Assembly: GCA_950295325.1 (NCBI GenBank)
Contig: OX485809.1
Location: 33,308,144 to 33,372,143 of the forward strand
Direction of reading: 5' to 3'
DNA from: Polytrichum commune
Lineage: Eukaryota > Streptophyta > Polytrichopsida > Polytrichales > Polytrichaceae
DNA length: 64,000 bases
In this document: positions 25,936 to 61,084 of the stretch, piece by piece
Layout: every line of letters starts with the position of its first letter
Position numbering within the stretch: position 1 is the stretch's first letter
The notes under the pieces: generated by a model
The model's database searches: none
Told to the model about the DNA's origin: nothing
What the model saw: only the letters and a program-made list of their open reading frames with translations
Program-made: the position numbers and the translations under genes

Positions 25936-27242
25936 TTAGGTTTTTGTGTTGGTGCCTTTCAAAGCCCACAAAAGTTCAATCAAATCACCTCTGAAACTAT
26001 AATGCAAGTCCTCATTTTCTATCTCTATTGTATCATTCATAAGAGCATCAAATGACAAGCCCTTACGCAATGGCACATTCTCATCAACTAGTCCTGAAAT
26101 AATATTTTCTAACCCCGGTACATCGCGTTCATCCTCCAAAATCATGTTGTGGAGAATGCAACATGTAAACATGATGTCAGAAATCGTGTCCATGCTCCAC
26201 TGGCGACATGGATTCTGAATAATGTTAAAACGGGCTTGCAACACTCCAAAGCAACGCTCAACATCTTTGCGGCACGCCTTTTGTTTTTTTGCAAAGTGTT
26301 TGCGTTTCTCATCACCGGGCTCGTGGATGCTTTGAACAAAGCAACTCCATTGTGAATATATTTCATCCGCCAACAAGTAGTACCGGTTGTACTCTTTCCC
26401 ATTCACCTCGAAGGTGAAGTCACTAGCCTCGCTAGTGAGCATGTTGTGGATCAATGGAGAGCGGTCAAACACATTGAGGTTATTATTTGACCCCGGCAAC
26501 CCAAAAAATATATGCCAGATGTGCAAACTATGATCAGCAACAACCTCTTGAATAATTGACCACTTTCTCTTCCTATTCCCAAAGTCTTTCTGCCATGCTA
26601 CCGGAAAATTTTCCACTTATAATGCATGCAATTCGATGACCCAAACATACCAGGGAAACCGCGAGCCGCATTGACTGTCAATTGTTGCTCAAAGTCAGCT
26701 CTCATGGGTTGTCGAAGATGGTGCTCTCCAAACTCATGACGGATAGCTGAACAAAAACGCTTCATGAACTCCATAGCGGTTGATTCACTTGTCCGACAAT
26801 AATCATCCATGGCATCAGCACAAACACCCAGAGAGAGCATCCGGAAGGCTGCCGTCATCTTCTGGCGAGAAGACAACCCTAATAAACTGCAAGCATCTTT
26901 CTTCTGAACAAAATAAGGGTCACGGACACAAACCCTTTTTAAAATGGTGAGAAACAATGATCTCCTCATGCGGAATCGCCGCTGGAAAAATACAGGACCC
27001 CACACCGGCTCATCATAAAAATAATCTAGGTGCATTCGCTCATCCATGATCACTCTAGCCCTCTCAATGTTCTTGGCCTTCCTTACACTTGACCCTCCAA
27101 TAACACTCATTGGTGGTTGTAATTCCGCATGAACTGCGCTCTCTAACTGACCCAAAGCCATAGCAATGCTAACCTCATCGTCCTCATCGTCCTCAAGAAA
27201 AGTTGCACGTGCATTTGCTAATCTAGCCCTCCAAGCTTCCAT
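25936..27242 (-). pseudogene. HARBI1-like (DDE_Tnp_4) transposase, decayed
   Basis: Two minus-strand blocks join head to tail. The N-terminal block (27242 to about 26620) has MEAWRARLANAR, RFRMRRSLFLTILKRV and GVCADAMDDYCRTSEST. The C-terminal block (about 26616-25936) has HIWHIFFGLPGSNN, YYLLADEIYSQW, KDVERCFGVLQARF and MFTCCILHNMI. A one-base loss in an A run near 26617 separates them. Two catalytic acids are changed. The family's GSxDCMH reads GSSNCMH (Asp to Asn, about 26641), and GSNNDxN reads GSNNNLN (Asp to Asn, about 26498). The Glu of DVERCFGV remains. Known: this nuclease cuts the element ends and targets TWA sites. The copy cannot be active. An in-frame stretch upstream of Met 27242 extends to 27332, but the family usually starts at the Met chosen here. 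Confidence 0.92.
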
Positions 27243-27339
27243 TGCAAAACACCACACAAAGAAGTGGACTCTAAACTTTGAACTGTGCTGAATACTGTAA
27301 TGTGAGATGGGAGAGAGGCCAATGGTCTTCAACTAGTCT

Positions 27340-36606: not shown

Positions 36607-38168
36607 CAGTGTTCAAGATTGAAGGCTTCAATGCCCTTCAAACGCGATTTGGCCCTTCAAAATATACCTCTCTCAAAACAGCCCTTCAAAATGCAACCCC
36701 AAACTCAAAATGAAAACTTCACTTGATGTCCTCAAAATTTTTACACCCGTCAACACTGTAGCGCTACAGTGACGAGGAGGTCGCTACAGTGACGACCTCG
36801 ACACCTAGCAAATGATTCATTCAACATCGATCTGACTTGGAATTCAACTTTTTAGGTCTTGCAAAAGATTGGAATCCAACCCTTTCTTTGGTAAGCATTG
36901 AGTCAGTGTTGTAGTGTGATGTGATTCAATCAATGTGAAATCAGTGCTGATTTGGGTCTACAAATTTAAAGGTTTGTGATGTAATTCACAGGCTAATCAC
37001 GAATGAATGTTTTTTGTGGGGTGAAGGCCAGCACACTGGTAGTGGTGGAGCATGATGGTGGGGTTCTGAAAGGATCATCAATTAGTGCAATTGCAGCTGC
37101 GAGTGCATTAGGGGAAGGAAGCACAGTCCAAGCTCCATCCAGCTATTGATAAGGTACTGATTCAGGCTTTGAAATGTTGTTGTTTACAATTATAGCTCTG
37201 GCTCCTTAAGGATTTACACCACTTTTGAGGATGAGCTTCTTAGGTTATACACTACTTTTAAGGGTGAGAGTGAAATCTGTTGCATCTTTTAAGCATGAGC
37301 TTCTTAGGTTAAACACCACTTCTAAGGGTGAGAGTAAAGTCTGTTGCATTCTTGTGCCAGAGACCGGTTTCGTCATCTTATTGTGAATGCAACCGATCAA
37401 ATTGATGAATTAGGTTGATCAAATTGATGCAACTCAATGATCGATTTCCTGACTTGTCCATTTTCAATGCGGCCCGGCTTTTTAGCCCGAAGCACTATCC
37501 CGTAGATGAATTGGACAGAGGGACATTAACGGAACAATGGTTGAACCGGTTGGTGACACATTTCCGTTGGAGCGATGACCTTGTTAATCAATGCAATGCG
37601 GAATTGCTAGAATTCGTGGAGATGTTATGTTCCGTTTGTGAACGCCGAAGTATGCAAGAAGCTTGGGTTTTTTGTGGCAATGACCGGGAGTTCATGATTA
37701 ATTGGCCAACTATGACGTCGCTATGGCAAGCCATACTTGTGATCCCAACTAGCATTGTTGTTTGTGAGCGTGGTTTTTCAAAGCAAAATTGGGTTAAGAG
37801 TGAAAGGAGAACTAGACTCAACCTTGACACACTAGATGCTTTAATGAGGGTTAGTCTAAATGGGTTAGGAGTTGAATTCATGGATTGGGATAATATTTTT
37901 GAATCTTGGAAAATTGGCACAAGAACCAACAAGCGTAGGGCATTATCACTAGAAGAGGTGGAGTTAGATGGTTGATTCTTAATTCTTCACATTGTATTGG
38001 AAGCATGCACCATATAAATCATGCATAAGTTTAATATGAGTTTTTTATATTTTATTTCTATATTACTGAATTGACGTCTTGAATTTGAACTAGCCCTTCA
38101 ACCGAAGGGCTCAAATTTTAGAGCCCTTCAAAATGAAACTCATATGAGGGCTTCAATCTTGAACACTG
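36607..38168. mobile_element. hAT transposon remnant, 1.56 kb, perfect 8-bp target duplication
   Basis: Inverted ends CAGTGTTCAAGATTGAAG at both sides, with GCCCTTCAAA words just inside each end. The 8-bp duplication GGCCCAAC lies at 36599-36606 and 38169-38176. The interior keeps only the 3' part of a transposase. A minisatellite of about 64 bp units (GAGCTTCTTAGGTTA-x-ACACCACTT-type) lies at about 37200-37350. CGCTACAGTGACGA is tandemly repeated near 36760-36800. Confidence 0.92.
37415..37975 (+). pseudogene. hAT transposase, C-terminal dimerisation domain only
   Basis: The frame encodes the conserved hAT C-terminal (hATC) region. MTSLWQAILVIPTSIVVCER, then GFSKQNWVKS, then RRTRLNLDTLDALMRV is the diagnostic block, about residues 100-150 of the frame. 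The N-terminal BED zinc finger and most of the RNase-H-like catalytic core are missing. A short direct repeat (GATCAAATTGATG, twice) at about 37395-37430 disrupts the upstream reading. Known: full-length relatives move hAT elements, and some have been adopted as host factors. Here the setting inside intact ends with a target duplication makes it a deleted transposon gene. Confidence 0.85.
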
Positions 38169-38519: not shown

Positions 38520-41000
38520 CAAACATCTTCGGCTCTGATGAGAGAGGAGTCGACTTTGAACTACTTCCATAGTGAGAGTTAGAGCTGCTATTAGAGAATA
38601 TTAATCTTAAAAGCCCACCTTCAATGCAAGACTACTGTAAGAAGCTGTGCTGGAAAGGATGACACCTACTTTACCAATGTAAGACATACACATAAAACAG
38701 TAGAGTTTACATGTATCAATAGACAAAGCACATCTGGCACTGACATGTCTTGTTTAGATTTAGATGCAAGTGGAGGGCATCACGATATTGCGCATGGCAA
38801 GTTGTTTTAAGCGAATATTTTACCGACTCCAGCTCAGAGGCACCTAATTTTTGCAAATTCCAGAGGTGTACGTGTTTCCTGCTCAAACAAGAAGCAACAA
38901 TCAGCGGAAACGTCGCATGCAGAATCCTCAGCTTACACTGGTATATCATGTGCAAGTAGGTTGTCTTCACAAACATGTTGTCTCTGCACCCATGCACACC
39001 ACCTTGGGCCAAAATCGATAGAAAGAGCTTATAACTTTGTTCATTCGTACCAGTGCCCAGGAAGTTTTTGGGCATAGTCGGTCAAGATCCTAAGTAGAAA
39101 TACCATAACCCGTGAAAATAAGGTGATTCGCATTGAAGATCTGGTCTGACAATCATGAGATAAATTTCCGAGATAGACGAGAAGGATTAATGAAGAATGC
39201 AAGTTGTTTCATATTTTTTTGCCTTATACAAAAAAATGCTACAATTTTTCAAAGTGGGAAGTTGTCCAAACCCCTATTCAGTCACTAGATTCTCCCTACA
39301 CCGAACACAGTAATCCGCATTTCCATACAAAACATCGCGTAAATCGGTTACCTAAAACTTGACTCCCATTAGCTACACTAAGTGTACACGCATGGAAGTT
39401 GTTGTTGAGCCATAATCGGTTTTAGAAATGGCACTTCACCGTTATGACGGCGGTCTAGTGCACGGCTAGAGGGTGGTTAACAGGTTATGGTATTTCTACC
39501 TTAGTCATTCTAAATCCAGCCGGTTACATGTTGATACCTTCTGGTTTTCCTTTATTCATTTGAGGTATATTCTACAAATTCCCCTAGGAACGATTGGTGA
39601 TTCTCCTGAAGTCTCCAACTTCAACCGGTTAATTCTCAAACTCATCCGATTCGTCTGCAACTAACCGCCGGTTCTTCCCGAGAAGTGGTGTATGAAAACC
39701 TATATATGTGGATAAATAGAGCAATAGAAAGAAAGCATCTAACTTTGTTCATTCGTACCAGTGCCCGGGAAGTTTTTGGGCATAGTCGGTCAAGGTCCTA
39801 GTCATTCTAAATCCAGCCGGTTACATGACAATATTTAGTTCATTACAAGCACAATGTTGTGATCAACCATGTAATTGTACTACGCATTTATGGCAACAAT
39901 GTAAATTGAAGATGGCAATCTCGGAAACTTTTATGGCTCATAAATGATTGTCATTAGAGGCCCGTGATTAGTTATAAGTGAGATCACATTGTGATGAATG
40001 TAAACCATAAACCTATAGAGGTGTGTTCTTACAAACCTCCCAGCATGGTTGCCACTAAATTGGAAAGGCCTCTCCACCGGATCTAGCATGTGGACCTGTG
40101 TGAGCTGGAAGTCTAGGCTTGGGCCCCATGCGGGTATGGGACCGGGACAAAGATTAAACTCAACATTTACATTGATGAGTGCAATTAGGTTGATCCATGA
40201 TCATTTGCCGCCATTCCACACTAAGTTGAATATTTATCACCACAATAACATATCCATGAAATATATTTCAATTGTGGTTGCTTTATAAGTGGATAAATAA
40301 AAATGTAAGTTTTAGTGATATAGTTTTCACCTTGGGTAGTTTGTATCGGTAAAAAAAAAGCCAATCTATTGTGAGGTCAACCTAATTGCACATCTCAATG
40401 TAGAAGAGAAGTTACAACATATCAAGCTAAAACGTGATATTGACCTTGGGTGGTTAGTAAGGACCTTTGGTACCAGGGTTCAAGGATTGAATTTTGAACA
40501 TGTCAACTTAGTGACTAACGTGTGACTTCTTCTTACTCGATTGTCACGTTGACTGCATTGTTTATGGTATTTAGTGTCGCTTATTATTTGGAGTCATGCT
40601 ATGCTATATCTTTTCAATGATAATGTAGCTTTGTATCGAATGAGGTTGTTTTACACTCTATAATGGCCAAGTAAATTACTTAACATATGTTTTTGCGATT
40701 ATGGCTACACTTTCTATACTTATTATTGTGGTCCACTATAATTTTGTCATGCCACAATAATTTGTATTGTCAATGTAATCTTTCTTGACCTACTCCATTT
40801 ATGATTTTAAAGTATCAAATGTTCAAAACTAGGAATATGGAACCAATGTTTTTCACATGAACATAAATTTATTGTGGGTTGGATGCGTGTGTGTATCCAT
40901 ATTAGACTAGAACATCAATAGTTTGTTGTATCTTATCATATTCTACATGAATATGAGTACTTTATGAATTATAAGCCACCTTAATTTCAACCCACACAAA
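38520..41000. other. Intergenic DNA with dispersed direct repeats
   Basis: No gene. A block of about 55 bp (TTGTTCATTCGTACCAGTGC, then GAAGTTTTTGGGCATAGTCG) occurs at about 39036-39090 and again at 39744-39800. TCTAAATCCAGCCGGTTACA occurs at about 39508 and 39806. The stretch 39510-39680 is the inverse of 49330-49510. Confidence 0.5.
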
Positions 41001-41009
41001 GTGACAATA

Positions 41010-41160
41010 TCAATTGTCAGATTGACATGAATGATGGACACTTCACCTTAATAATAACGGGGAGCTCATATGCACACCCGAGACATGGTTATTGAGCATG
41101 GTTATGGGACAAATGCTAATGCCCCATGTTGGAGGTGATCCCTATTAGTAAGTAACGATG
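41010..41160. repeat. Dispersed repeat, left copy flanking the G/T-rich segment
   Basis: Shares order and words with 44600-44760: GACATGAATGA, CACTTCACCTT, GAGCTCATATG, GGTTAT(T/G)(G/A)AGCA, GGAGGTGATCCCTAT. Both copies have the same orientation. Confidence 0.6.
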
Positions 41161-43880
41161 ATATGGGGGGGGGGGGGAGAGAGTTTGTTGGGATGTTTAT
41201 TGGTATATGGGTTTGTGTGTACCAATATGTGTGTTTCAGAGGTGGGTGTCATAAGGCTATGGTGGTTGTACTTGTTGTAACATGTCTTGGGTTTGATTAT
41301 GGGGGTTGACCTTGACAAGTCGACTATCCTTTATGTGAGCAAGTTACTTAGGTGTTTTCTTGTAGGATTCATTACATAGGCTTTGGTGTCTTGGGGGGGG
41401 GGGGGTATTGGTGGTTTCTTAAGTGGGAATTATAGGTTGTTGGTGGATTTCCAATTTTCATTTGTCAAGAATTAGTAAGGTAAGGTATTTTATGGCCATG
41501 AGGTGGATTTATTGTTTGCATGGATGTGCAAATTGGGGGGGGGGGGATGTAGCATTGTTTGAGTAGGTTGGTGACAATGCTTGTGTAAATGCCTCCTTTG
41601 ATGCATGCTATGAATATCACTAATGTGACATACTAGCTGGTGTCTTCAAGAGTGTCCAAATCTAGTAAATGGTAATTGAGTTTTCTTTCTCCTTTGGGTT
41701 GCGCTATTGGCATAAGGTAAACTTAATGAATTGTAGGCTCGAGTTTTGGGTGGTTTCATGTGTGGTTTTCTCAAGGGAAGTGATGGTGATGATTAGGAAG
41801 TCAAGTGTGAGTATGGCGAGGCATTGGCATGGCCTTGGGGTGCAAATGCAGGAGTATAGCCATGTAAGGATTTTATTCTATTTGGAGGGCCCCTCCAAGT
41901 ATATGCATTCATTAGTAGGTTGTCTTGAGTTGTGGAGTGTGCAAACTAGCTTATGTATTTTGCCATATTGCTTTATTGAGTTTGATTGTTTGGATATTGT
42001 TGAGGATGGAGTTGGTGCATGTGGAAACATGTGTCAGCCTCTTCTTCTAAGCAAATGTGGTAGAGGGAGGAGGGCATTTTGGTGGGCTAGATGGTGTGTT
42101 TCGTTTGATTACCCATGTATTGGCCAAATCACAATTTAAGGGTGTGCATTATTTATGCATACATGCATTGGGGTGTTGAGCAAAAATAGTTGGAAGATGG
42201 GAATGTGGAGTAGTGGTTGTTGAGACATTTTGCTATATATAAGTATTGAGGTAGTATCGTGGTAACCAATTATGGGGGGTGTATTCCTTATGTATGCAGG
42301 GGTTGAGGTGCCTAATAAGTGTGGTGTGGGGGTGTTTTGTAAGTATGTTGGAGTGCCATAAGGGAGTGGTTTGTGCTATGTGCATTGGAGGTGTGGTGGG
42401 GGTTTGTGAGCGCCTAGTTTGGCAAGTTTATCGGCGGTGTCATTCCCGAGTATTCCCGAGTGTACACGAGTTTACTAGAGGATGAGGGGAGTTGTGTGTT
42501 GCGATAGTTGTCAAACTAAGGCTTGTGTGAGTAGTTTGTTGGGATGGTTATGTTGGGAGGAGGGTCGGTGGAGGTGGTTGTGATAAAGTTGAGTATTATG
42601 TGAAGATATATGAGTGTGTGGTGTTCTCGTTGGTGACGTCCTACATAGGTGGTTCTTAATCCTACGCATAGGATAGTTTAATGTTCATGGAGTCGATTGG
42701 CATATTGAGAAGTGCTAGCAAGGTGGTAGATTCCCAATCTAGTAATGCCTTTGTCATTTGTGGTGGGAGGTTGGGGTAAAATAACTGTGTAGTAGGTGTG
42801 TGGTGGGGTATTTTAGTGTGGGTTGTATGTAGAACAAGGTTGGGAGTAGGAGGAGGAGAGAAGGGGCTGGGGATTCGTGGCACTCAAGTAAAATCATCCA
42901 TCCAAGATATCGTGGATGAAGTGGCTCCAATAAAAAAAGCCCCCCTATGGGATTGAGGGCCGATTCATTCGAATGTGACATCACTAGACTAATTCGGGGC
43001 CTTTGACTCTATTTCCGGAATCAAATAGCCCAAAAATAGCCATTTAGATTATTTATGTGTTTTTTTCATCCGCACGAATGATTTTACTTGAGTGCCACGA
43101 ATCCCCGGCCGAGAGAAGGGGGTTGTATTCATCGTAGTATTAGGGGGTGGGGTGTATTTCCATTTCTTGAATAGATTGACCTTGGTGGGTATGGCCCATG
43201 TGTTGAGATTTTGTGCAAGGAGAAATTTGGTTAATAATAGTAGTGTGGCGTTGAGGCATTATTACCAAGATGGGAATTTAAATGAAGGGTGTCTAAAATT
43301 GGTGTCAGCGTAAGATAGTGTCATTATTTAATTTGGTTTTGGTGAGGTATGTTGGGAATATGGCTTTTTTTTTGGGGGGGGGGGGGGGTATTAAAGGGAA
43401 TGTGAGTTGAGATGAGCGAGTATTTGGGTGTTGGTATGGGAACCGACAACAAAATTTTATTTTTTATATTTAATACTAATACTAATATTTTTGGGTAGTT
43501 ATGAAGATGGCGAGGGCTTTGGGGTATATGTGTGTTGGCATTTTGGCCAAGTGTAGTGCTTTTACGGCGGTTTGAGACTTTGGTGGGTAGCTAGGCCCCT
43601 CTCTACCCATTGGAAGGAATATGCGTTGATGTGGGTTCTGAAGATTGTGTCTCATGGGCGGGGGTGAGTGGTAATTGTGGAGTTTAGGGACATGTAAGCG
43701 GACTCGAGTATTATGAGTGAGTGAGTGAAAATGTACTAATGGGGAATGGTAGGATAGAGGGGAGTAAGTTGTTGTAAATAAGGACCTTTTTAAAATGCAG
43801 TGGAGTTGATAAGGAAACGAGGGGATAAATATGGTAAGTGCAACATGGTATTTTCTACCCACGAATTGTTCAACCCACAA
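41150..43880. repeat. G/T-rich, C-poor strand-asymmetric segment with poly-G runs
   Basis: For about 2.7 kb the plus strand is rich in G and T with few C. It has runs of 12-15 G at about 41165, 41393, 41535 and 43374. An ACCAATTATGGGGGG-type style recurs, but I see no fixed unit. Long open frames (for example 41669-42139 on plus, 43482-43988 on minus) have low-complexity composition and no family motif. It is interrupted by the inverted-repeat element at 42867-43110. Confidence 0.6.
42867..43110. mobile_element. MITE with long direct flank repeat, possibly Mutator-type
   Basis: Inverted ends match for about 27 bp: GGGGATTCGTGGCACTCAAG then TAAAATCAT on both arms. The 11-bp word GAGAGAAGGGG lies immediately outside both ends (42856-42866 and 43111-43121). 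A target duplication of 9-11 bp suits Mutator-like elements. Length 244 bp, no coding frame. Confidence 0.78.
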
Positions 43881-44560
43881 TATTAGGTGTAAAAATGTAG
43901 ATGTATTGCTCTTTGAGTCCTCCCCCCCCACCCTAGGGTGCATTAATTTTACCAAAGTAAAAGGATATAGGTAAACCGTGCTCCCCATGTTTGTATTATG
44001 TCCATCCTAATTCATTCATGCAAAGAGAAAGACTTTGACTAGCCTTGTAGCTCGGTTTTCTGGTGTCTAAGTAAACTCATCTATTGTAGATGAGATGGCT
44101 TGAATACACACAAACCTTGACAACAAATTGTGCAAAAATCATTGTCAACAAAGCATGTAAGGCCAGAACGATATAATCTTTTTCTTATAGAAAATAAAAA
44201 CCAAGAGGATGTTGGAACAGGGGTGTATATTCAAGCAAATTGAACATAGATAATCTCCAAATTGAGGGATGTATTATTCCAATTAGACCACAGAAGAACA
44301 TGTCATCACAGAATTTGAAAGCCCTAATATAATTTTCACATTCCTGTTTTATATAAGAATCATACAATCATGAATGCGCATGAGACACCAATATTGAGAA
44401 GTTTCAAACTTTGTACATTACAAAGGCTTTATAACTTAAACACAATATTGTGATTGCTATGAGCTCAAACCACATGACCTTAGGAGAGAAACAATAAGAT
44501 GATCTTCTCTCCTACCCCGAGCTCTCTCTTATACCCGAAAAGTACTCCTAGTCTTATCCA
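43881..44560. other. Intergenic DNA
   Basis: No gene seen. A C8 run lies near 43922. Confidence 0.3.
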
Positions 44561-52519: not shown

Positions 52520-55500
52520 ATGGGGACGAAGAGGACGAGCATCGTAGCCCTGATCCTTTCGCTTATAATATCTACAACGACACTGATCCCTCAGGTGTGT
52601 GTCACGGCGCAGAGTTACAACGATGCTGTGGCATACCTGAACACGGTTGAGGAGGAGGTCAAGACAGTCGCCGCCGAAGCCATTCAAAATTTTGTTGCCA
52701 CATGTGGTACGTTAATCCCACACCGGTTCATTGTGCGACATACACACATAAGTGATATTGCAGCCTGGCTCAACACAATATGTCAGTTATATAAATATCA
52801 CATGTTTCTTCAGTATCTCTGAAAGTAATATAAATCACAGCGCATTATTATATCACTTGACAAACCCCAAAAGTCTTCCTACTTAGAAGCTCTTGCATAA
52901 GAGAAGCATATGAATATTCACTAACCTGTTTCTCTCAAGTCGACTCTCCTATTGTTTGACTTGAGCCCTTCCGTTCCGGTTTATTCAGAGCCTCACAGCC
53001 AAAACAGGTCAATGTGGCATGATTCTCAAACTTGAAAACAAAGAAATCCATTATACAAGCTTAGCTATCACACACCCTCAAAAAAATTTGGTTGAAGAAA
53101 AATTAATCTTTGCAGCAAGGCCTCGACTCTACGTGATACTACCTTACATCTTGACACGATGTCTATCCTGTTTGAATTAATATATCGATGCGTGCAGAGA
53201 GCACCATATCTGCACAATGAACTAGAAAATTTCGGAAGACCTAAAAAAATGTACATATACTAGAGAACTATGGCAAGGATTCTTTGGTTTGATATCGCAC
53301 CTTTGTGTGGGGACTCTGCAAACTCTGTTGCTTAGATGCTCCATTTAGAAAGTAGAGTATATTTCTCCAACATATATGTGGAGAGTACATGTGGCTTTTA
53401 AGTTCGGAGCCTCTTCGAAACTGATACTTAGGGCTTTCTTTCTAACGAAGTGGAGAAAATCTTGTGTAGTACATTAATTATGCAAAGCATTCTACCGCCT
53501 GATTCTAAACCATGTTTACAGTGACAGTGGGACAACAAATAGTGGATTTTATCAGAGAATCATTGTATAAGTTAGCTTAGAAGATCACAAGTCGAACCAT
53601 CAAGTTCTCCACCTTGCTCTCTAAGATAGATGTACCTGATTCTGATACTTTTCTCTATACATCCACTTCTAGTAAGATATGAACACGCAATTAGTGCGAG
53701 TTGATTAGCAAATGCAAATTGTGCCTGTAGCCATTTTCCTTATAATTTTTGGAGCTCACATGCATATCTTGTTCGTTATCAAAGTGAAGATTCTTGTGCT
53801 CATGAAATAGTCATATAGGTCCCCTAACCATGTTGACTTTTTGAGCATAAAATAGTTAGCAAATTCTAAGTACGCAGTCCAATCTTTTTAAACACGTCTT
53901 TTTGGTGTCCGTTCTTTGATCCAATCCTAACCACATACCGCTTAAATATAGATGTTCAAAATTATTGTTGTGTTGGAATTAGGCATGTCTACCTTAGATT
54001 ATCCTTCAGGAAAAGTCTTTCAGATTATTGCAGTAAGGTGGCTGAATTACTGATCTCTATGTTGGTGATATTTTGTATCTGGATGCAGACTTAGTGACTT
54101 CGTGTCCGAGTAGTTGCTCAAGGAAGGCATGTGACCCGTTGGAAGGAGACACGGCATTGCTCACTTGCATGAGCGTTGCCTTGAATCCAACCTGCAATGG
54201 ACCAAACGGAACCTTGGGTTGCACCAAGCTGCCAGTCAGTCTTTCTAAGAGCTATGTGAGGTGAATTGATCTTTCCACCACCTTCATGTTAATGCAAGCT
54301 CAGACTCCCCCACTTGCAGATATTGCACTGATGTGCAATCACAATCAGCATTTTGATACTTCTTGTGGATTTTCTATTCCAGGAGATGTTGGTGACAGAG
54401 GCTGTCAATCTTATCACTGAAAAAAAACTTCCAATCTTAGAGCAACTCCTGTGTTCACTTGCAGATGTTGCTCTGATGTGCAATCATAATTAGTACTTGA
54501 ATACTTTCTTTTCTTTTTTCTTTCCTATTCTAGGAGATGTTGGTGACAGAGGCTATCAATTTTATCACTGAAAAAAATATTACAATCACAGAGCAACTCC
54601 TGTCTCCACTTGCAGATATTGCACTGATGTGCAAACACAATTAGCATTTGGATAGATATTGTAAATTTATTATATACCAGGAGATGTTGGTGGCAGAGGC
54701 TGTCAATTCTAATACTGAAACAAATCACAATCTTAGAGTAACTCTTACGGTCAGTGTAAAATGGTTTTAATGAATTTAAGGCTTTTGAAGTTTTTGGGCT
54801 ATTGTCACAGGCTCCACCCACCCATAAAGTCCACATAAATCATACATCTTCACTGGCCACCAAATATTGAGAGAAAGACACCTTTCTTAAGTCCTCATTC
54901 ACTCAATGTTGATGGTGGGTGAAGGTTTAAAGGGTTGCTTCTCTCAGAAATTGATGGATATTATTTGATTTTTTTGTGTGTATATATATATATATATGGA
55001 TGGACTTTATGGGTGGGAATAGTTTGCTCCAAAAATACCTAGAAAGTTGATTATTTTACATGGATTGTTGGAGACATTCTTAGACTTATTTAATGGCCAA
55101 GAAACAACATTTGAACGATTTTGTAGAATCTATTTCTCCAGATAGCCAAGGTAACAAATTTTTTATGAGTGCAGGTTAAAGTGAACACTCTTAGAGTACT
55201 AAATTTAAATGTATACGTATTTGGTTGCAGGTTGTCAAGCCCATCCAATGTGACTGTGGTAGACTCAGCCAACTACACAATTTGTAGTCAACGGATGCTT
55301 GACCCCACATTTATCAACATCTCAAATAGTCAGAACAATACAATCAACCTGACTACTTGGGTCTACTTTGGTTCAGTGGAAGGCGTTGAACGTTCATTTC
55401 CTGGTCGTGTAAGCTTTCCAACCACCTTGAACTCACAACATAACTTCCAAATTTCTAAGACAATTCCACTTGTCAAATTCAATAATAGATCTTTCAAACA

Positions 55501-58500
55501 CATTAAAGAATTTGTAACAATGCCCTAATCATATCAGTCTCAAAAACATCCTCATTTTAATGTGGTGACTTGTGTTCCAGGAATCGGCAAAGACAGATTG
55601 CACCTTTGAGCCAAGAAAACGCCCATGGTAAGTTGACAACGACACTTGCAATTCAATTACGCCTTGACTTTAATATACATATCGGCCTCTCAATTTCTTA
55701 TATCAAGAATTGCACAACATTACGAACTAGGTAATGGATGCGGGGAGTCCTTCCATGGCATGTTTTAGGCACCCAAACTACTGAGCTACGGCAGAGCTGA
55801 CGTAAGTATTGGGTGCCTACCACAGCAGGATGACAAGTGCCCATCACCAGACGTAGTGGTCAGGTGGCAGAGACATCAATGGCGCATCAATGCCTCTCTC
55901 ATGCCCAATCAATACTAGACAAGTCACAAATATTGCTTGGCCTGATCTTTATCAAGTTGCTGTGAAGTCTGGACCACCCTGTTAAATATTGATTCCATGC
56001 TAATCCTTTCTCCATGCCACAGGTATGTAGGTGCCACGGCTGTGAAAAAGGATCTTGTAATACTCCTGGATGGTGGCTACTCTATGGGCAATACCCTCCC
56101 TGTGGACTTGTTCACTGCCTCTGAAACCAAGTTCACTGCTGCTGTCAACATGATCACGGAGTTACTGGACACTTTGACTTATGGCGATCGTGTCTCTGTA
56201 CTCAAATTTACAAGCGACTCTACCGCAACCCTTGTGGGGAACACGGTATGTGCAGTACTGTCTCATCACAAACATGTCTCAGGATGTCATTATTGATAAC
56301 TCTTGAAAAGATTGTGTATGTTGCATGTCTAGTAAATCCACATCATAATGTTCTCCGCGACATCTTACTAGCTTTGTGAGCATTGAATTCTTACTTTAAG
56401 GTCAGTGGGCCCAAAGTGGACATTTATTAAAATATTTAGCCCACTTCTCCTAGTAGGGCATTTGACATGAGATAATAAGCAAATCCAAACTGAGCCCGTA
56501 GCCATTTTCCTCAAAATTATCAGAACGCATATGCTTATATCATGTATTATAAAAATCAAGATTTTTCCTTACATGATATATAGCCCCTGCCCCCCCAATT
56601 TTTGCCTACTAGACTACTTAACAAGTTTCTGAGCATGTAGTCCTAAATATTGTATCAACACATATGTGTTCTTCTATCCTCACCTTATCACATGGCACCC
56701 ATCCAAATTTAGGTGTTTTTATTAAGTTGAGTGACCACATTGATAAGCCCACTTAAGGTAGACGTCTCTAAGTCGAACACAACAATAATCTGAATACCTA
56801 TGTTTGAGTGGTATGTGTGGGTCTAAGAACTTGCACCAAAAAAGGATGTGTTTAAGAAAGATCAGAGTACGTGCTCAAAATATGCTAACCATTATAGACT
56901 TAATAGTCAACATGATTAGGGACCTATATGACCACTTAATGAGCACAAGAATCTCCACTTTGATATTCATGCATACGAGCTCAAAAGATTATGAGGCAAC
57001 GGCTGTGGACACGATTTGGATTTGCTAATCATCTTGGCACACTAATTACGGTTTTCATATTCTACAAGAAACTGTGGGTGTGGAGAGAAAAGTATTTGTC
57101 TAAGGCATGTCTACCTTACCTTATGAGAGATTCTGATGCATTCTTAATGCTGCATCATGCAGACGACAGCGACCGGCAACGCTTCCGATTTCGTCCTTCA
57201 GCCTCTGAAAAACGCACTGAGCTCATCGTCTCCTGACACAAAGCAAGGCTCCTCCTCCAATTTGGAAGCTGGGTTCCAAATGGCAAACCAGACATTTGCT
57301 CCAAACACGAACAGTCTGAAAATCATCCTGGTCATCACGGACGGCCAATTTGCAGACTCTAACTTACTCTCGACTGTGAAACCCGTGCTTGATAGCCTCG
57401 TGTTACAAAAGGTGTTGGTGCTTCTGTACAGTTTTGACCGTACACAAGGTACAGGAGGAGCCAAAGCCGCACTGTCCCAGGTGGCCTGTTATGTGAATGG
57501 CACATATGAGCAAGTGGAGAAGATGGTGGATAATCCTCTGTGGACGCTGAGATCCTATTTTGGGATTATTGCCTACTGGCGCCTGGAATACAATAAGTTC
57601 AGACCCTACTGGAGTAAACCTTATCCGGACGATGGCGGCCTCGGATCAGTGATAACAGCCGCGTACCCAGCCTTTGCTCCAGACAACTACACACTGATAG
57701 GTGTGGTGGGCTATGATATTAACCTGAACGAGTTGGCAGGCATTACGGCTACACAGTTCTCAGCAGCCTTGGCTCTTCGAGCTAGTTCGGATCCCGCTGA
57801 CATTGTCGTCAACCCGGTCCCATTGCCGTGTAATGTGAGCCTCTCTAACTTAGCATTTATTGTCTTCCTGGTCACTTTGGTTTGAGGTAAGACATGCCTA
57901 AATTGAACATAGCAATAGTATGGACACTTATTTGAGTGGTATGTGGTTAGGTGTGGGTTTAAGAATGGATACCAAAGAGATGTACATGTTTAAAATAAAT
58001 TGGATTAAGTGGTAAAAATATGCTCACCATTTGAGGTTCACTAGTCAACATGATTAGGGGGGCCTATATGACCACGTAACAAACATGAGTGTCTTCACTT
58101 TAATAGTGAATAAGGTACTCATGAGCGCTAAATTTTTTGAGACAAATGACTATGGGCAAGATTTGGATTTGCTACTCATCTCGCACTAATTGAGTGTTTC
58201 ATATCCTACAAGAAGTGGATGCAGAGAGAAAAGTATCTGAATAACACATGTTTACCTTACATCAATTTCTCAACCACACAACGTACACTAGACAAACCCT
58301 TTGTGTTTTCTTAGTCGTAATATATACATACTATGTGAGTGGAGTACTTGATGAGTGGGTCTATTTCGGTCACTTACCTTAAAAAAAACACCCAAATTTG
58401 ATAGACATATCACGATTTGGTATGGAAATCGGAAAAAATACATGTTCAAAGAAGTTGGACTACATGCTCAAGAATTGTTAGCTATTTTAAGCTCAAATGT

Positions 58501-61084
58501 CAAAATAATTGGTGAGAACCTATATGGTGATTTAAGAAAGAAAATCCTCAATTTGACAATGAATAATATACTTACATGCACTCCAGAATATATGAAGACA
58601 ATGGCTACATTGTCAACTTGGATCTGCTAGTCAGATTGTACTTACTGCATGTTTAATATCCTAGGAGTAGGATAATCAGAAGAAAAAAAAACAAAGTTTC
58701 TGTTTTAGGCCCACTTCCCTTATTGATGCCTTTCTGCATGAACTTTGGTGCCTGCTAACAAGCCAGGCAACCCCACAGTCCTTTGGTCGAGCATTTACTC
58801 ATCCCCATTAAGAGACACTTCTATTAATGGGATAGGTCTAAGTGGAAAAGCATAAGATATTCTTCATACATTCAGCTATCATGTTGTTTTCTCAGCATCA
58901 AATACTCATTGTTGGAAGGGTGTATATATAAATATTTAACACACCATTAAACTGCCATGTGTGGTGTCCATTACAGATTCAACTTTCACAATTGAACGTG
59001 TGTCCCAATGTTGGGCCCCCTGCCGCTCCTTTGTGCATATCGAATGACACGAGCAACATTTCGTTCGAAGACCGGGTGTGCAGTTGCCAACCTCAATGCC
59101 ACGCTCCGCCAACCCTTGCTCCGCCCACTTCGGTTTCACCGGTAGTAATTGGTGTGGTGGCAGGTGGTGGGGGAGCCCTCCTGGTGGCCATTATCATCAC
59201 GGCCGTTTTCTGTTGTTGGTGCTGTAAACGTAGGAAGCTCAACCAAATGGCTGTTGACCAAAAGACATCTGTTGTGGAGCCTTTGAATTCAGGCTCACCC
59301 AATTCCACCTCCACAAAGTCCACAAAGACGTCGCAGAAGAGCATGAAGGCCAGCTACAACGCGACATCTCAGGAGGTTGATGGTCCCTCCTCGGTTGTGT
59401 CCACAACCGGGTCTAAGGCTTCTGATGGGTATGTGTTTCTCCAATTTGAAATCAACCCTGCCTGAGTGATGTCCATGCTCTTTTGCATTTCTAGAGTAGT
59501 AACTGAGTCAGTGATGTCTTTTTTGTAAATAAGTTATATCAAATCCTGTGCTTGACAAGGTATAGTGCCATAACAAAAGAAACGTTATAATTTTTGCCTT
59601 TTTCCATGAAGAAGCCAAAAATTGTAATAACAAGTGCAGCATAATTGCCACTTTGACATATAAAACACTCTTCTTTATTAAGAATGTTTGGATTGCAGCG
59701 TAAGGTATGAGCAGCTACATTAGTAAGGTCACTGTGGAATGGTTAAGTGATAGCATTGAGGGGTGTCTATTAGACTCAAATAAAATGACCTGCTTATGCT
59801 TCAAGTAGGAAGTTCACTAGATATGTCATGAAAGTCACTATGTTCTGGCTAGTAATAACCTTGCTCATGGTACACACAAGTACAACGTTCGATATGTAAC
59901 AGAACTTCCTAACGCAGTTAGACTAAGGGCTAGAGGCCAACCGCCAAAGCGGATGCAATGACATGCCTTAAGTTATGGCCCAATAAATTATTGCTGGCGA
60001 CTAAACTTGGTGATATGATGGCTTTTCTTCAAACCAAATCAGGCAAACGCTGAGAGGATCCAAAACTTTGAAAGCTCCTGCGTGGCCAGAGGGTGGTCAA
60101 AGTTTGAGCAGAGATTTACGGTGCTTCTCGCACGAAGAATTGAGCTCCGCTACGGGCAACTGGTCGAATGAGTCCATATTAGGGCAAGGAGCCTGCGGGA
60201 ATGTGTACAAGGGGGACTTCGACGGATTGGTTATGGCCATCAAAAAACCTCATGAGGGGGTCGAAGTCGCGAGCGGTACGTTCGACCGGGAACTGGAGCT
60301 GCTGTCGAAGCTCAACCACAGATGCCTGGTGCGGCTACTCGGGTACTGCGAAGACGAGAGGGTACTCGTGTACGAGTTTATGGAGAATGGCACGTTGGAG
60401 GATTGTTTGCACCGGAACTTCCTGGGGAGGATCCTCACGTGGGAGGAAAGGTTAAAAATCGCGGTGGGAGCGTCCCGGGGCCTCGAATACCTGCACGACT
60501 TTGCGGTGAATAAAATCATTCACGGGGACGTAAAACCGGCCAACATTTTGTTAGACGACAGGCTTGAGGCCCATATCTCGGACTTTGGGCTTTCCCTGTG
60601 GCACAATGACCAGCAGGCGTCGTGCCTGTGGGCGAGCCGCATGGGAGGCACACCTGGCTACTTTGACCCCGAGTTTGCGAGCTTAGGCGCGTCCACGGCT
60701 GGCAGCGACGTGTACAGCTTCGGGGTCGTGTTGCTGGAGATTTTGAGTGGGCGGAAGGTGATTCAGGAGAACATGAACATCACCAACTGGGCCGCGAAGC
60801 TTTACGAGTCCGACGCGTCCCAGATCCTGGATCCGAATCTGGAGCGGCCGAGCGCCATCGACTCGTTCGAAGGGATCATCAAACTCGCGCTGCAGTGTGT
60901 GCAGCCGGAGAATAGGTATCGCCCCCGGATGAAGGACGTGGCAACCTATTTGGATAGCGTGTTGTCCGAGTGGCAGAAATCGAGCCAGGCTACGCCCACC
61001 ACCCGACATCCGAGCCGACGCAACCACCCACACCGGCCCTTGTCGCAATCTTCATTTGAAGATCAGTCTTATTCGAATCCGTGA
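52520..61084 (+). CDS. Receptor-like kinase with a VWA_N-VWA-Cache ectodomain
   Basis: Eight exons: 52520-52706, 54089-54260, 55231-55408, 55581-55627, 56023-56245, 57163-57834, 58977-59428, 60043-61084. Every junction is GT-AG and phases agree, giving 990 residues. Residues 1-30 are a signal peptide. About 32-195 resemble VWA_N, including LTTWVYFGSVEGVERSFPG and FEPRKRPWY. About 205-380 are a von Willebrand A domain (LVILLDGGYSMG, IILVITDG). About 392-465 are a Cache-type sensor (DDGGLGSVITAAYPAF, LIGVVGYDINL). A Cys/Pro-rich stalk precedes one membrane helix (about 549-576). The kinase (about 685-950) has GQGACGNVYKG, AIK (Lys711), HGDVKPANILLD and DFG. HRD is HGD, so it is a non-RD kinase. 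The metal site reads DGGYS, not DxSxS. Known: this domain order is that of animal calcium-channel alpha2-delta subunits. Inferred: a plasma-membrane receptor for a small ligand. Start choice: the first ATG that gives the signal peptide. Confidence 0.9.
53625..53993 (-). mobile_element. Intronic MITE, GGTAGACATGCCT family, copy in intron 1
   Basis: The right end GGCATGTCTACC is followed by TTA; the left end GATAGATGTACC is preceded by TAA. The body is the inverse of 57886-58256 (for example TTAGCAAATGCAAATTGTGCC against GGATTTGCTACTCATC). Length 369 bp, no coding frame. TWA flanks suggest PIF/Harbinger. Confidence 0.7.
54298..54760 (+). repeat. Exon-like tandem repeat in intron 2, unit about 150 bp
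   Basis: The word GAGATGTTGGTG begins copies at 54383, 54534 and 54681, and a partial copy precedes them. Each copy follows an intron-like CCAG or CTAG acceptor. Two copies read open for 36 codons and end at the same TAG (EMLVTEAVNLITEK... and EMLVTEAINFITEK...). A second acceptor-like CACTTGCAG lies inside each unit. The simplest splice model skips them, joining 54260 to 55231 in phase. They might be alternative or poison exons, or an intronic satellite. Confidence 0.6.
56340..56750 (-). mobile_element. Degenerate intronic MITE in intron 5, inverted
   Basis: About 56450-56640 is a diverged copy of the element at 53625-53993 in the same (minus) orientation. Shared order includes AATAAGCAAATCCAAACTGAGCCCG, TAGCCATTTTCCT, ACGCATATG and GAGCATGTAGTCC. 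Its edges are unclear. It lies next to an oppositely oriented copy at 56759. Confidence 0.5.
56759..57110 (+). mobile_element. Intronic MITE, GGTAGACATGCCT family, second copy in intron 5
   Basis: The left end GGTAGACGTCTCTAAG follows TAA. The right end GGCATGTCTACC lies near 57101-57112, followed by TTA. The body carries TATATGACCACTTAATGAGC and GATTTGGATTTGCTAATC, as in the intron 6 copy. The 3' edge is about 50 bp before exon 6. Confidence 0.7.
57886..58256 (+). mobile_element. Intronic MITE, GGTAGACATGCCT family, copy in intron 6
   Basis: The left end GGTAAGACATGCC follows TGA. The right end is the complement of GGTAAACATGTG, followed by TTA. It begins only about 50 bp after the donor at 57835 and provides a downstream GGTAAGAC that could act as a cryptic donor. 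Confidence 0.65.
58357..58700 (+). repeat. Related intronic repeat in intron 6
   Basis: A second, more diverged relative of the same family in the same intron: TACATGTTCAAAGAAGTTGG, ACATGCTCAAGAATTGTTAGC, CCTATATGGTGATTT and GGATCTGCTAGTC follow the family's order. Ends not resolved. Confidence 0.5.

Follow-up and report, generated by a model that had tools for sequence, protein, structure and literature searches.

A plant receptor-like kinase family with a Cache-VWA ectodomain and a possible role in sensing extracellular amino acids

The stretch of DNA analysed here (the window, 64 kb, C7:33308144-33372143 of a 407.8 Mb plant genome) carries a gene that is predicted to encode a 990-aa type I membrane protein, in which an ectodomain resembling that of animal calcium-channel alpha2-delta subunits is joined through one transmembrane helix to a plant receptor kinase. 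A sequence-only reading of the same DNA had proposed a single gene of this kind, and the proposal was borne out by the spliced reading frame, by matches to CACHD1 and alpha2-delta-1 and by six sister loci; we regard the fusion architecture as near certain. The gene belongs to a small family of plant receptor-like kinases, and with moderate confidence we consider its product most likely to be a receptor at the cell surface that binds an extracellular amino acid or a compound resembling one, with GABA as a candidate.

Gene structure and predicted protein

Eight exons at 52520-61084 (+) were spliced by hand and, as the earlier reading had claimed, they join in phase, with GT-AG boundaries at all seven introns and no internal stops. 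The resulting frame has 990 codons and encodes 990 aa, with an in-frame stop upstream of the ATG and a stop codon at 61082-61084. GC content is 0.44-0.56 in the exons of this gene vs 0.33-0.45 in its introns. The features are as follows.

52520-52706 (+): exon 1, start codon, signal peptide (approximately residues 1-30) and start of the ectodomain; residues 1-62
52707-54088 (+): intron 1, GT-AG, GC 0.37
54089-54260 (+): exon 2, cysteine-rich N-terminal ectodomain; residues 63-119
54261-55230 (+): intron 2, containing a 151-base tandem repeat at 54310-54744
55231-55408 (+): exon 3, start of the Cache module, with WVYFGSVEGVERSFPGR; residues 120-179
55581-55627 (+): exon 4, 47 bases, with F188, R193 and W195, the residues of the first half of the amino-acid motif encoded here
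56023-56245 (+): exon 5, motif residue Y196, followed by the start of the inserted VWA at about residue 205
56069-56083 (+): incomplete metal motif DGGYS, in exon 5
57163-57834 (+): exon 6, end of the VWA (to about residue 390), then the second half of the Cache module
57622-57624 (+): Y423 codon, in exon 6
57715-57717 (+): D454 codon, in exon 6
58977-59428 (+): exon 7, cysteine-rich stalk, transmembrane helix, CCKRRK and a Ser/Thr-rich juxtamembrane part
59142-59216 (+): transmembrane helix, residues 549-573, in exon 7
60043-61084 (+): exon 8, plant receptor-like kinase domain with VAIK-type lysine and DFG; stop codon
60167-60940 (+): kinase domain, residues 686-943, in exon 8
60521-60529 (+): HGD (non-RD) loop, in exon 8

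The W195 codon is split by the intron between exons 4 and 5. Hydropathy exceeds 1.5 at two peaks only, the signal peptide near residue 8 and the transmembrane helix at 549, as read from a hydropathy plot rather than from a dedicated predictor, and the helix is followed by the basic stop-transfer sequence CCKRRK. Together with the Pfam matches, this gives the layout expected of a plant receptor-like kinase: signal peptide, ectodomain, single transmembrane helix and cytoplasmic kinase. Pfam placed Pkinase at 686-943 (E 4e-37), VWA_2 at 206-331 (E 4.6e-10) and VWA (E 3.9e-7) in the 990-aa protein. The kinase and VWA matches that the earlier reading had predicted are above cut-off, while the Cache match (PF22673, a PDC/Cache module, at 408-461, E 3.8e-5) remains below it at 24.5 bits against 27, and the predicted VWA_N match fell away, as described below.

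The tandem repeat of intron 2 comprises three copies and lies outside the open frame; in each unit an AG resembling a splice acceptor precedes what looks like the start of an exon (GAGATGTTGGTG). Related repeats, direct and inverted, occur at 53622-53948, 56469-57119 and 57929-58514 (introns 1, 5 and 6) and are probably the remains of a mobile element. Elsewhere in the window, two frames at 25936-27332 (-) match the plant transposon protein family PF04827, one of them also matching DDE_Tnp_4; we take these to be a Harbinger-like transposase. The C-terminal dimerisation region of a hAT transposase lies at 37409-37975 (+), and the block at 40001-44000 has the highest GC skew (0.359) among the 16 4-kb blocks of the window.

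The ectodomain and its relation to Cache and VWA domains

When residues 1-552 were used in a sequence search of the PDB, CACHD1 (147-468) was matched with E 6.6e-10 and alpha2-delta-1 (162-501) with E of about 1e-8; in a BLAST comparison of 333 residues with the alpha2-delta-1 segment, identity was 25% across 329 columns. With both CACHD1 and alpha2-delta-1, a single alignment covers the VWA together with the sequence on either side of it (WVYFGSVEGV...RPWY, VWA, YPDDGGLGSVITAAYPAF...GVVGYD). A profile of the seven family genes described below matched alpha2-delta-1 with E 2e-25, and its best non-animal match was the bacterial amino-acid chemoreceptor PctA (E 0.0011). CACHD1 was not among the 18 sequences returned by the profile search (E up to 0.1), despite leading the single-sequence search.

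In alpha2-delta-1, the VWA sits within the first dCache_1 domain and splits its amino-acid motif, according to the structural account in PMC9901441. The insertion point in the plant protein is the same: after the RPWY strand, inside its Cache module. When the VWA was excised in silico, PF22673 rose to 27.5 bits, just over the 27.0 cut-off, and the best PDB match became PctA, a weak match (E 0.0012) in which no single stretch passes alone; alpha2-delta-1 then scored E 0.19. The alignment of the excised protein to PctA pairs the PRSRPWY, PY and GGD segments. The PctA E-values are modest, and by these searches the strong match is that of the family profile to alpha2-delta-1. We therefore interpret the ectodomain as a single Cache (PDC) module that is interrupted by a VWA, like the corresponding module of alpha2-delta, and its pre-VWA part as the first half of that module.

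This interpretation changes one element of the earlier reading, which had described the order VWA_N-VWA-Cache. The homology to alpha2-delta was upheld, but three separate modules give way to a single Cache split by a VWA. As a domain, PF08399 VWA_N was rejected: the pre-VWA part alone scored 13.5 of the 34.7 bits needed, and a scan of the 990-aa protein up to E 10 did not list the model at all. In four of the six paralogues (C2, C5, C6a and C6b), the same model reached 13.0-19.6 bits, all below cut-off and nearest to it in C6b (19.6 bits, E 0.0015). A PF08399 search of the plant's own genome gave no matches, which is uninformative because its 14 control genomes also gave none.

Other searches bear on how much of an alpha2-delta subunit is present. 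PF02743 dCache_1 did not match the whole or the VWA-excised protein, against 90.7 bits for a bacterial control (L053). A second dCache or a VGCC_alpha2 region gave no Pfam match up to E 10 in the 990-aa protein, and NCBIfam returned nothing for the ectodomain. Between the Cache module and the transmembrane helix there are approximately 60-90 residues, the figure varying with the end point chosen for the module; we judged this too few for a second module, and therefore describe a single-module Cache followed by a cysteine-rich stalk. The N-terminal part has its own conserved feature, six cysteines of exon 2 (68, 72, 77, 89, 98 and 107) that are invariant in all seven genes. Pfam on C2, C5, C6a and C6b placed the VWA model over cut-off in C6a only (41.5 bits), with PF22673 at 15.9-21.3 bits, below cut-off, in C2, C5 and C6b and absent from C6a. 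Since alignment homology of these genes to the window gene is clear, we attribute the weak scores to divergence from the models and not to absence of the domains. A structure prediction for exon 6 alone gave a pLDDT of 36.7.

The gene family and its two kinase types

Searching the genome with the ectodomain returned 28 exon-sized matches, which resolve into at least seven loci on six contigs; the search scored the best candidates only, so that seven is a minimum. Within the 64-kb window the only matches were the gene's own exons, with no paralogue.

C7:33308144-33372143 (+): window locus, ectodomain and kinase
C4, 1.93 Mb: ectodomain and kinase, with an in-frame TAG between the motif halves
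C3, 36.06 Mb: ectodomain and kinase
C5, 36.21 Mb (-): ectodomain and kinase
C2, 47.18 Mb: ectodomain and kinase
C6, 15.32 Mb (C6a): ectodomain and kinase
C6, 22.62 Mb (C6b): ectodomain and helix, kinase not found

The six other loci were modelled by spliced alignment of proteins, with an aligner that reproduced the window model up to the stop codon; the paralogue models are incomplete, chiefly at their 5' ends. In the ectodomain, C3, C4 and C5 are 52-54% identical to the window gene, and C2, C6a and C6b 32-34%. Three introns, at window residues 120 (phase 2), 180 (phase 0) and 195 (phase 2), are common to all seven genes, and a fourth at residue 270 (phase 0) to six, with C6b one column off. 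The small exon carrying the RPWY motif is 47 bases long in the four closest genes and 53, 53 and 50 in the other three. The window protein and its relatives served as guides for the aligner, so that these intron positions lean towards the guide; the GT-AG signals and the differing intron lengths are independent of it. One intron of the C2 model begins with GC. The genome search also reported a 689-aa open frame at C2:47180954-47182762, yet no frame of at least 250 aa was found in the 16 kb analysed for this locus. An eighth candidate member, C4:46722248-46723065 (46.72 Mb), consists of broken pieces of a C2-like ectodomain; it is probably a pseudogene and was left out of all counts.

With six more loci carrying the same ectodomain, a chance origin of the fusion is excluded, and we consider the joining of ectodomain and kinase to be real. 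An assembly artefact or contaminant DNA is extremely improbable given seven loci on six contigs, with differing intron lengths and common intron positions. It could also be supposed that two adjacent genes are involved, the first encoding the ectodomain and finishing with exon 7, the second encoding the kinase. The frame of exon 7 can indeed be followed roughly 12 residues into intron 7 before a stop, and C6b has an ectodomain and helix with no kinase found in the approximately 25 kb beyond its helix exon (tblastn with four kinase queries over 36 kb that include this stretch). However, a kinase lies downstream on the same strand at six of the seven loci, the splice from exon 7 to exon 8 keeps the frame and has GT-AG ends, and a phase-2 juxtamembrane intron occurs in each of the four close genes, although in differing alignment columns. 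Exon 8 also has no usable start: the first methionine of its frame falls in the MAIKK segment of the kinase, and none stands ahead of the nucleotide loop. Two separate genes are thus very improbable, and we continue with a single gene.

The kinase of the window gene has all of its catalytic motifs (K, D, N and DFG), and its pre-kinase FSHEELSSATGNW resembles a consensus given in PMC10916322. Its nearest PDB chains are plant receptor-like kinases, FERONIA (E 1e-54) and SYMRK, and for the C6a kinase the nearest structure is BAK1 (E 9e-75); solved structures sample the kinases sparsely, and these matches do not amount to an assignment to subfamilies. The window gene, C3, C4 and C5 have HGD, with glycine for the arginine of HRD (non-RD), and C2 and C6a have HRD. 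Identity between the two types is 33-36%, and C2 and C6a have in common four intron positions within the kinase that are absent from the others. Because four genes are non-RD and two are RD, with differing introns and nearest structures, the ectodomain has been combined with two types of kinase. For C3 vs C5, pS is 0.73 and pN is 0.18 in the ectodomain and 0.14 in the kinase; for the window gene vs C3, pS is 0.70 and 0.68 and pN is 0.34 and 0.28, respectively, the ratios being rough because synonymous sites are near saturation. By these comparisons the ectodomain and the kinase are both under constraint, and the family is old.

Candidate ligands, signalling and comparison with known systems

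The amino-acid motif reportedly has its primary description in a 2022 PNAS paper. In PctA, its residues are listed as Y121, R126, W128, Y129, Y144 and D173, of which R126 makes the bond to the carboxyl group (as reported in PMC10104139). R stands five positions after Y in the PctA numbering and in alpha2-delta-1, and the motif shorthand printed in PMC9901441 places it four positions after. The corresponding positions in the window gene are F188, R193, W195, Y196, Y423 and D454. R193, W195 and Y196 are kept in all seven genes and Y423 and D454 in six, the exception being C4, with F and Q. C2, C6a and C6b begin the motif with Y and so carry all six residues (Y, R, W, Y, Y, D); the remaining four genes have F there, and the window gene reads F, R, W, Y, Y, D. 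With C4 set aside, five of the six motif columns are invariant vs 52 of 319 overall (hypergeometric P 5e-4), and with C4 included three of six vs 45 of 317 (P 0.04), where the columns are not independent of one another. The published amino-acid-binding motif thus appears to be largely kept.

The earlier reading had proposed a small-molecule or metal-dependent sensor. The kept motif favours the first part of that proposal and, being conserved, sharpens it to amino-acid-like ligands. The second part would have the VWA MIDAS bind Ca2+ or Mg2+ and report apoplastic divalent cations to the kinase. In its favour, the VWA is over cut-off in the window gene and D211 and D329 are kept in all seven genes. 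Against this, the MIDAS DxSxS reads DGGYS in the window gene; the position of the first serine is G in seven of seven genes, and the second is S in five. The metal site is therefore incomplete, which weakens the metal-dependent reading, and we consider it improbable.

The main rival to the amino-acid reading is a receptor kinase for a protein ligand, in which the split Cache-VWA would bind a protein or cell-wall partner and the small-molecule pocket would be a relic. CACHD1 is the best single-sequence PDB match, and it binds Frizzled and LRP6, the latter through its dCache, as described in PMC7615972; VWA domains are often protein-binding (noted in PMC9901441), and four of the seven genes have F at the start of the motif, among them the window copy, whose F also counts against the amino-acid reading. 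So does C4, which is without Y423 and D454 and has the in-frame TAG, and so does C6b, for which no kinase was found. CACHD1 binds proteins and has I in place of the motif tryptophan (RPIY), from which it follows that a split Cache can serve protein binding. The plant genes, however, keep R, W and Y throughout and Y and D in all but one, three of them have the complete set, and the metal site that a VWA uses for protein ligands is incomplete here. We regard a protein ligand as unlikely, although binding of amino acids and CACHD1-like binding of proteins could both be true.

Returning to the amino-acid reading, the sensing domain is otherwise known from animal calcium-channel subunits and bacterial amino-acid receptors, and one genome has a family of genes that join it to a kinase, so that the window gene may encode a receptor sensing free amino acids. 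We infer a ligand, a conformational signal and a partner kinase as follows. An amino acid or a similar compound in the wall space would bind the pocket, where R193 would hold its carboxylate and D454 its amino group, the latter contact being suggested by the role of this residue in related sensors, with F188, W195 and Y423 forming an aromatic cage around the ligand. Closure of the pocket would move the VWA and the cysteine-rich stalk, and this movement would rearrange contacts of the receptor or a co-receptor through the single transmembrane helix, switching the cytoplasmic kinase. Non-RD kinases, such as those of plant immune receptors, probably need a partner; as the window kinase is non-RD, a partner RD kinase would probably be required. 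More tentatively, it is possible that plants of this lineage dedicate a receptor kinase family to the sensing of extracellular free amino acids or GABA, using a split-Cache pocket of the alpha2-delta-1 type in an ectodomain that was joined at least two times to different kinase types.

A plant receptor kinase with a Cache domain runs against a 2016 survey, in which Cache in plants and fungi is stated to be limited to histidine kinases (PMC4822843, in the statement cited here). None with a Cache or VWA ectodomain was found among the literature matches listed, though automatic database annotation may exist, and the terms VWA, von Willebrand and Cache do not occur in the main text of a 2024 plant receptor kinase review (PMC10868138) or in that of PMC10916322, also on plant receptor kinases. 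The VWA-split Cache has been described in animals for alpha2-delta (PMC9901441); its occurrence here indicates that it exists in plants too. For the perception of extracellular amino acids by plants, glutamate-receptor homologues are presented as hypothesised sensors in PMC3483616, and a recognisable amino-acid pocket on a receptor kinase would make such perception directly testable. The split-Cache pocket of human alpha2-delta-1 binds amino acids and gabapentin, and the drug gabapentin would become a possible chemical probe in plants.

As to origin, a prokaryote scan with the window protein returned no relative, and with the seven-gene alignment it returned at least 11 bacterial loci. In all 11 of the bacterial loci among the matches listed, the 30 residues after RPWY continue without a VWA. 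Full open reading frames were read for five of them, and in the four that were scanned with Pfam a Cache is combined with an output of the SpoIIE, chemotaxis or kinase kind, and no VWA was matched; VWA-split Caches may nevertheless occur in bacteria. Because plants and animals share the insertion point, common descent of the split module, vertical or by transfer, is suggested, and the plant form points to one of two histories, an ancient origin within eukaryotes or a transfer of the gene.

Among known systems, alpha2-delta is alike in that the VWA splits the Cache module after the RPWY strand and in the R, W, Y and Y, D of the motif (as given in PMC9901441). It differs in having two dCache domains, where the plant protein has one Cache module and no VGCC_alpha2 match, and in its delta part and lipid anchor, where the plant protein has a transmembrane helix and a plant kinase, together with an incomplete metal site. 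With no second dCache, no VGCC_alpha2 and a kinase after the helix, the window gene product is not an alpha2-delta subunit, and the kinase following the helix argues against a lipid anchor. CACHD1 is likewise a type I membrane protein with VWA and dCache, but as described in PMC7615972 its dCache domains number two, it includes a domain that binds Frizzled, and it lacks a kinase. PctA and the other bacterial dCache_1 amino-acid chemoreceptors resemble the plant protein through the weak best PDB match after VWA removal, in which the motif is aligned; they have no VWA, a two-module dCache and a chemotaxis output. A Victivallales MAG (L044:3-1796) encodes a Hanks-type Ser/Thr kinase and a dCache_1 sensor in one protein, but this is bacterial, has its kinase N-terminal and gave no VWA match, and it looks like an independent joining. 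In mGlyR/GPR179, a Cache also serves as the ligand-binding ectodomain of a eukaryotic cell-surface receptor; by its description in PMC12716839, that receptor is set apart by G-protein coupling, the absence of a kinase and a Cache placed on an EGF-like domain. Finally, FERONIA, SYMRK, BRI1 and BAK1 are alike in their kinase domain, and the plant protein carries a split Cache-VWA as its ectodomain instead.
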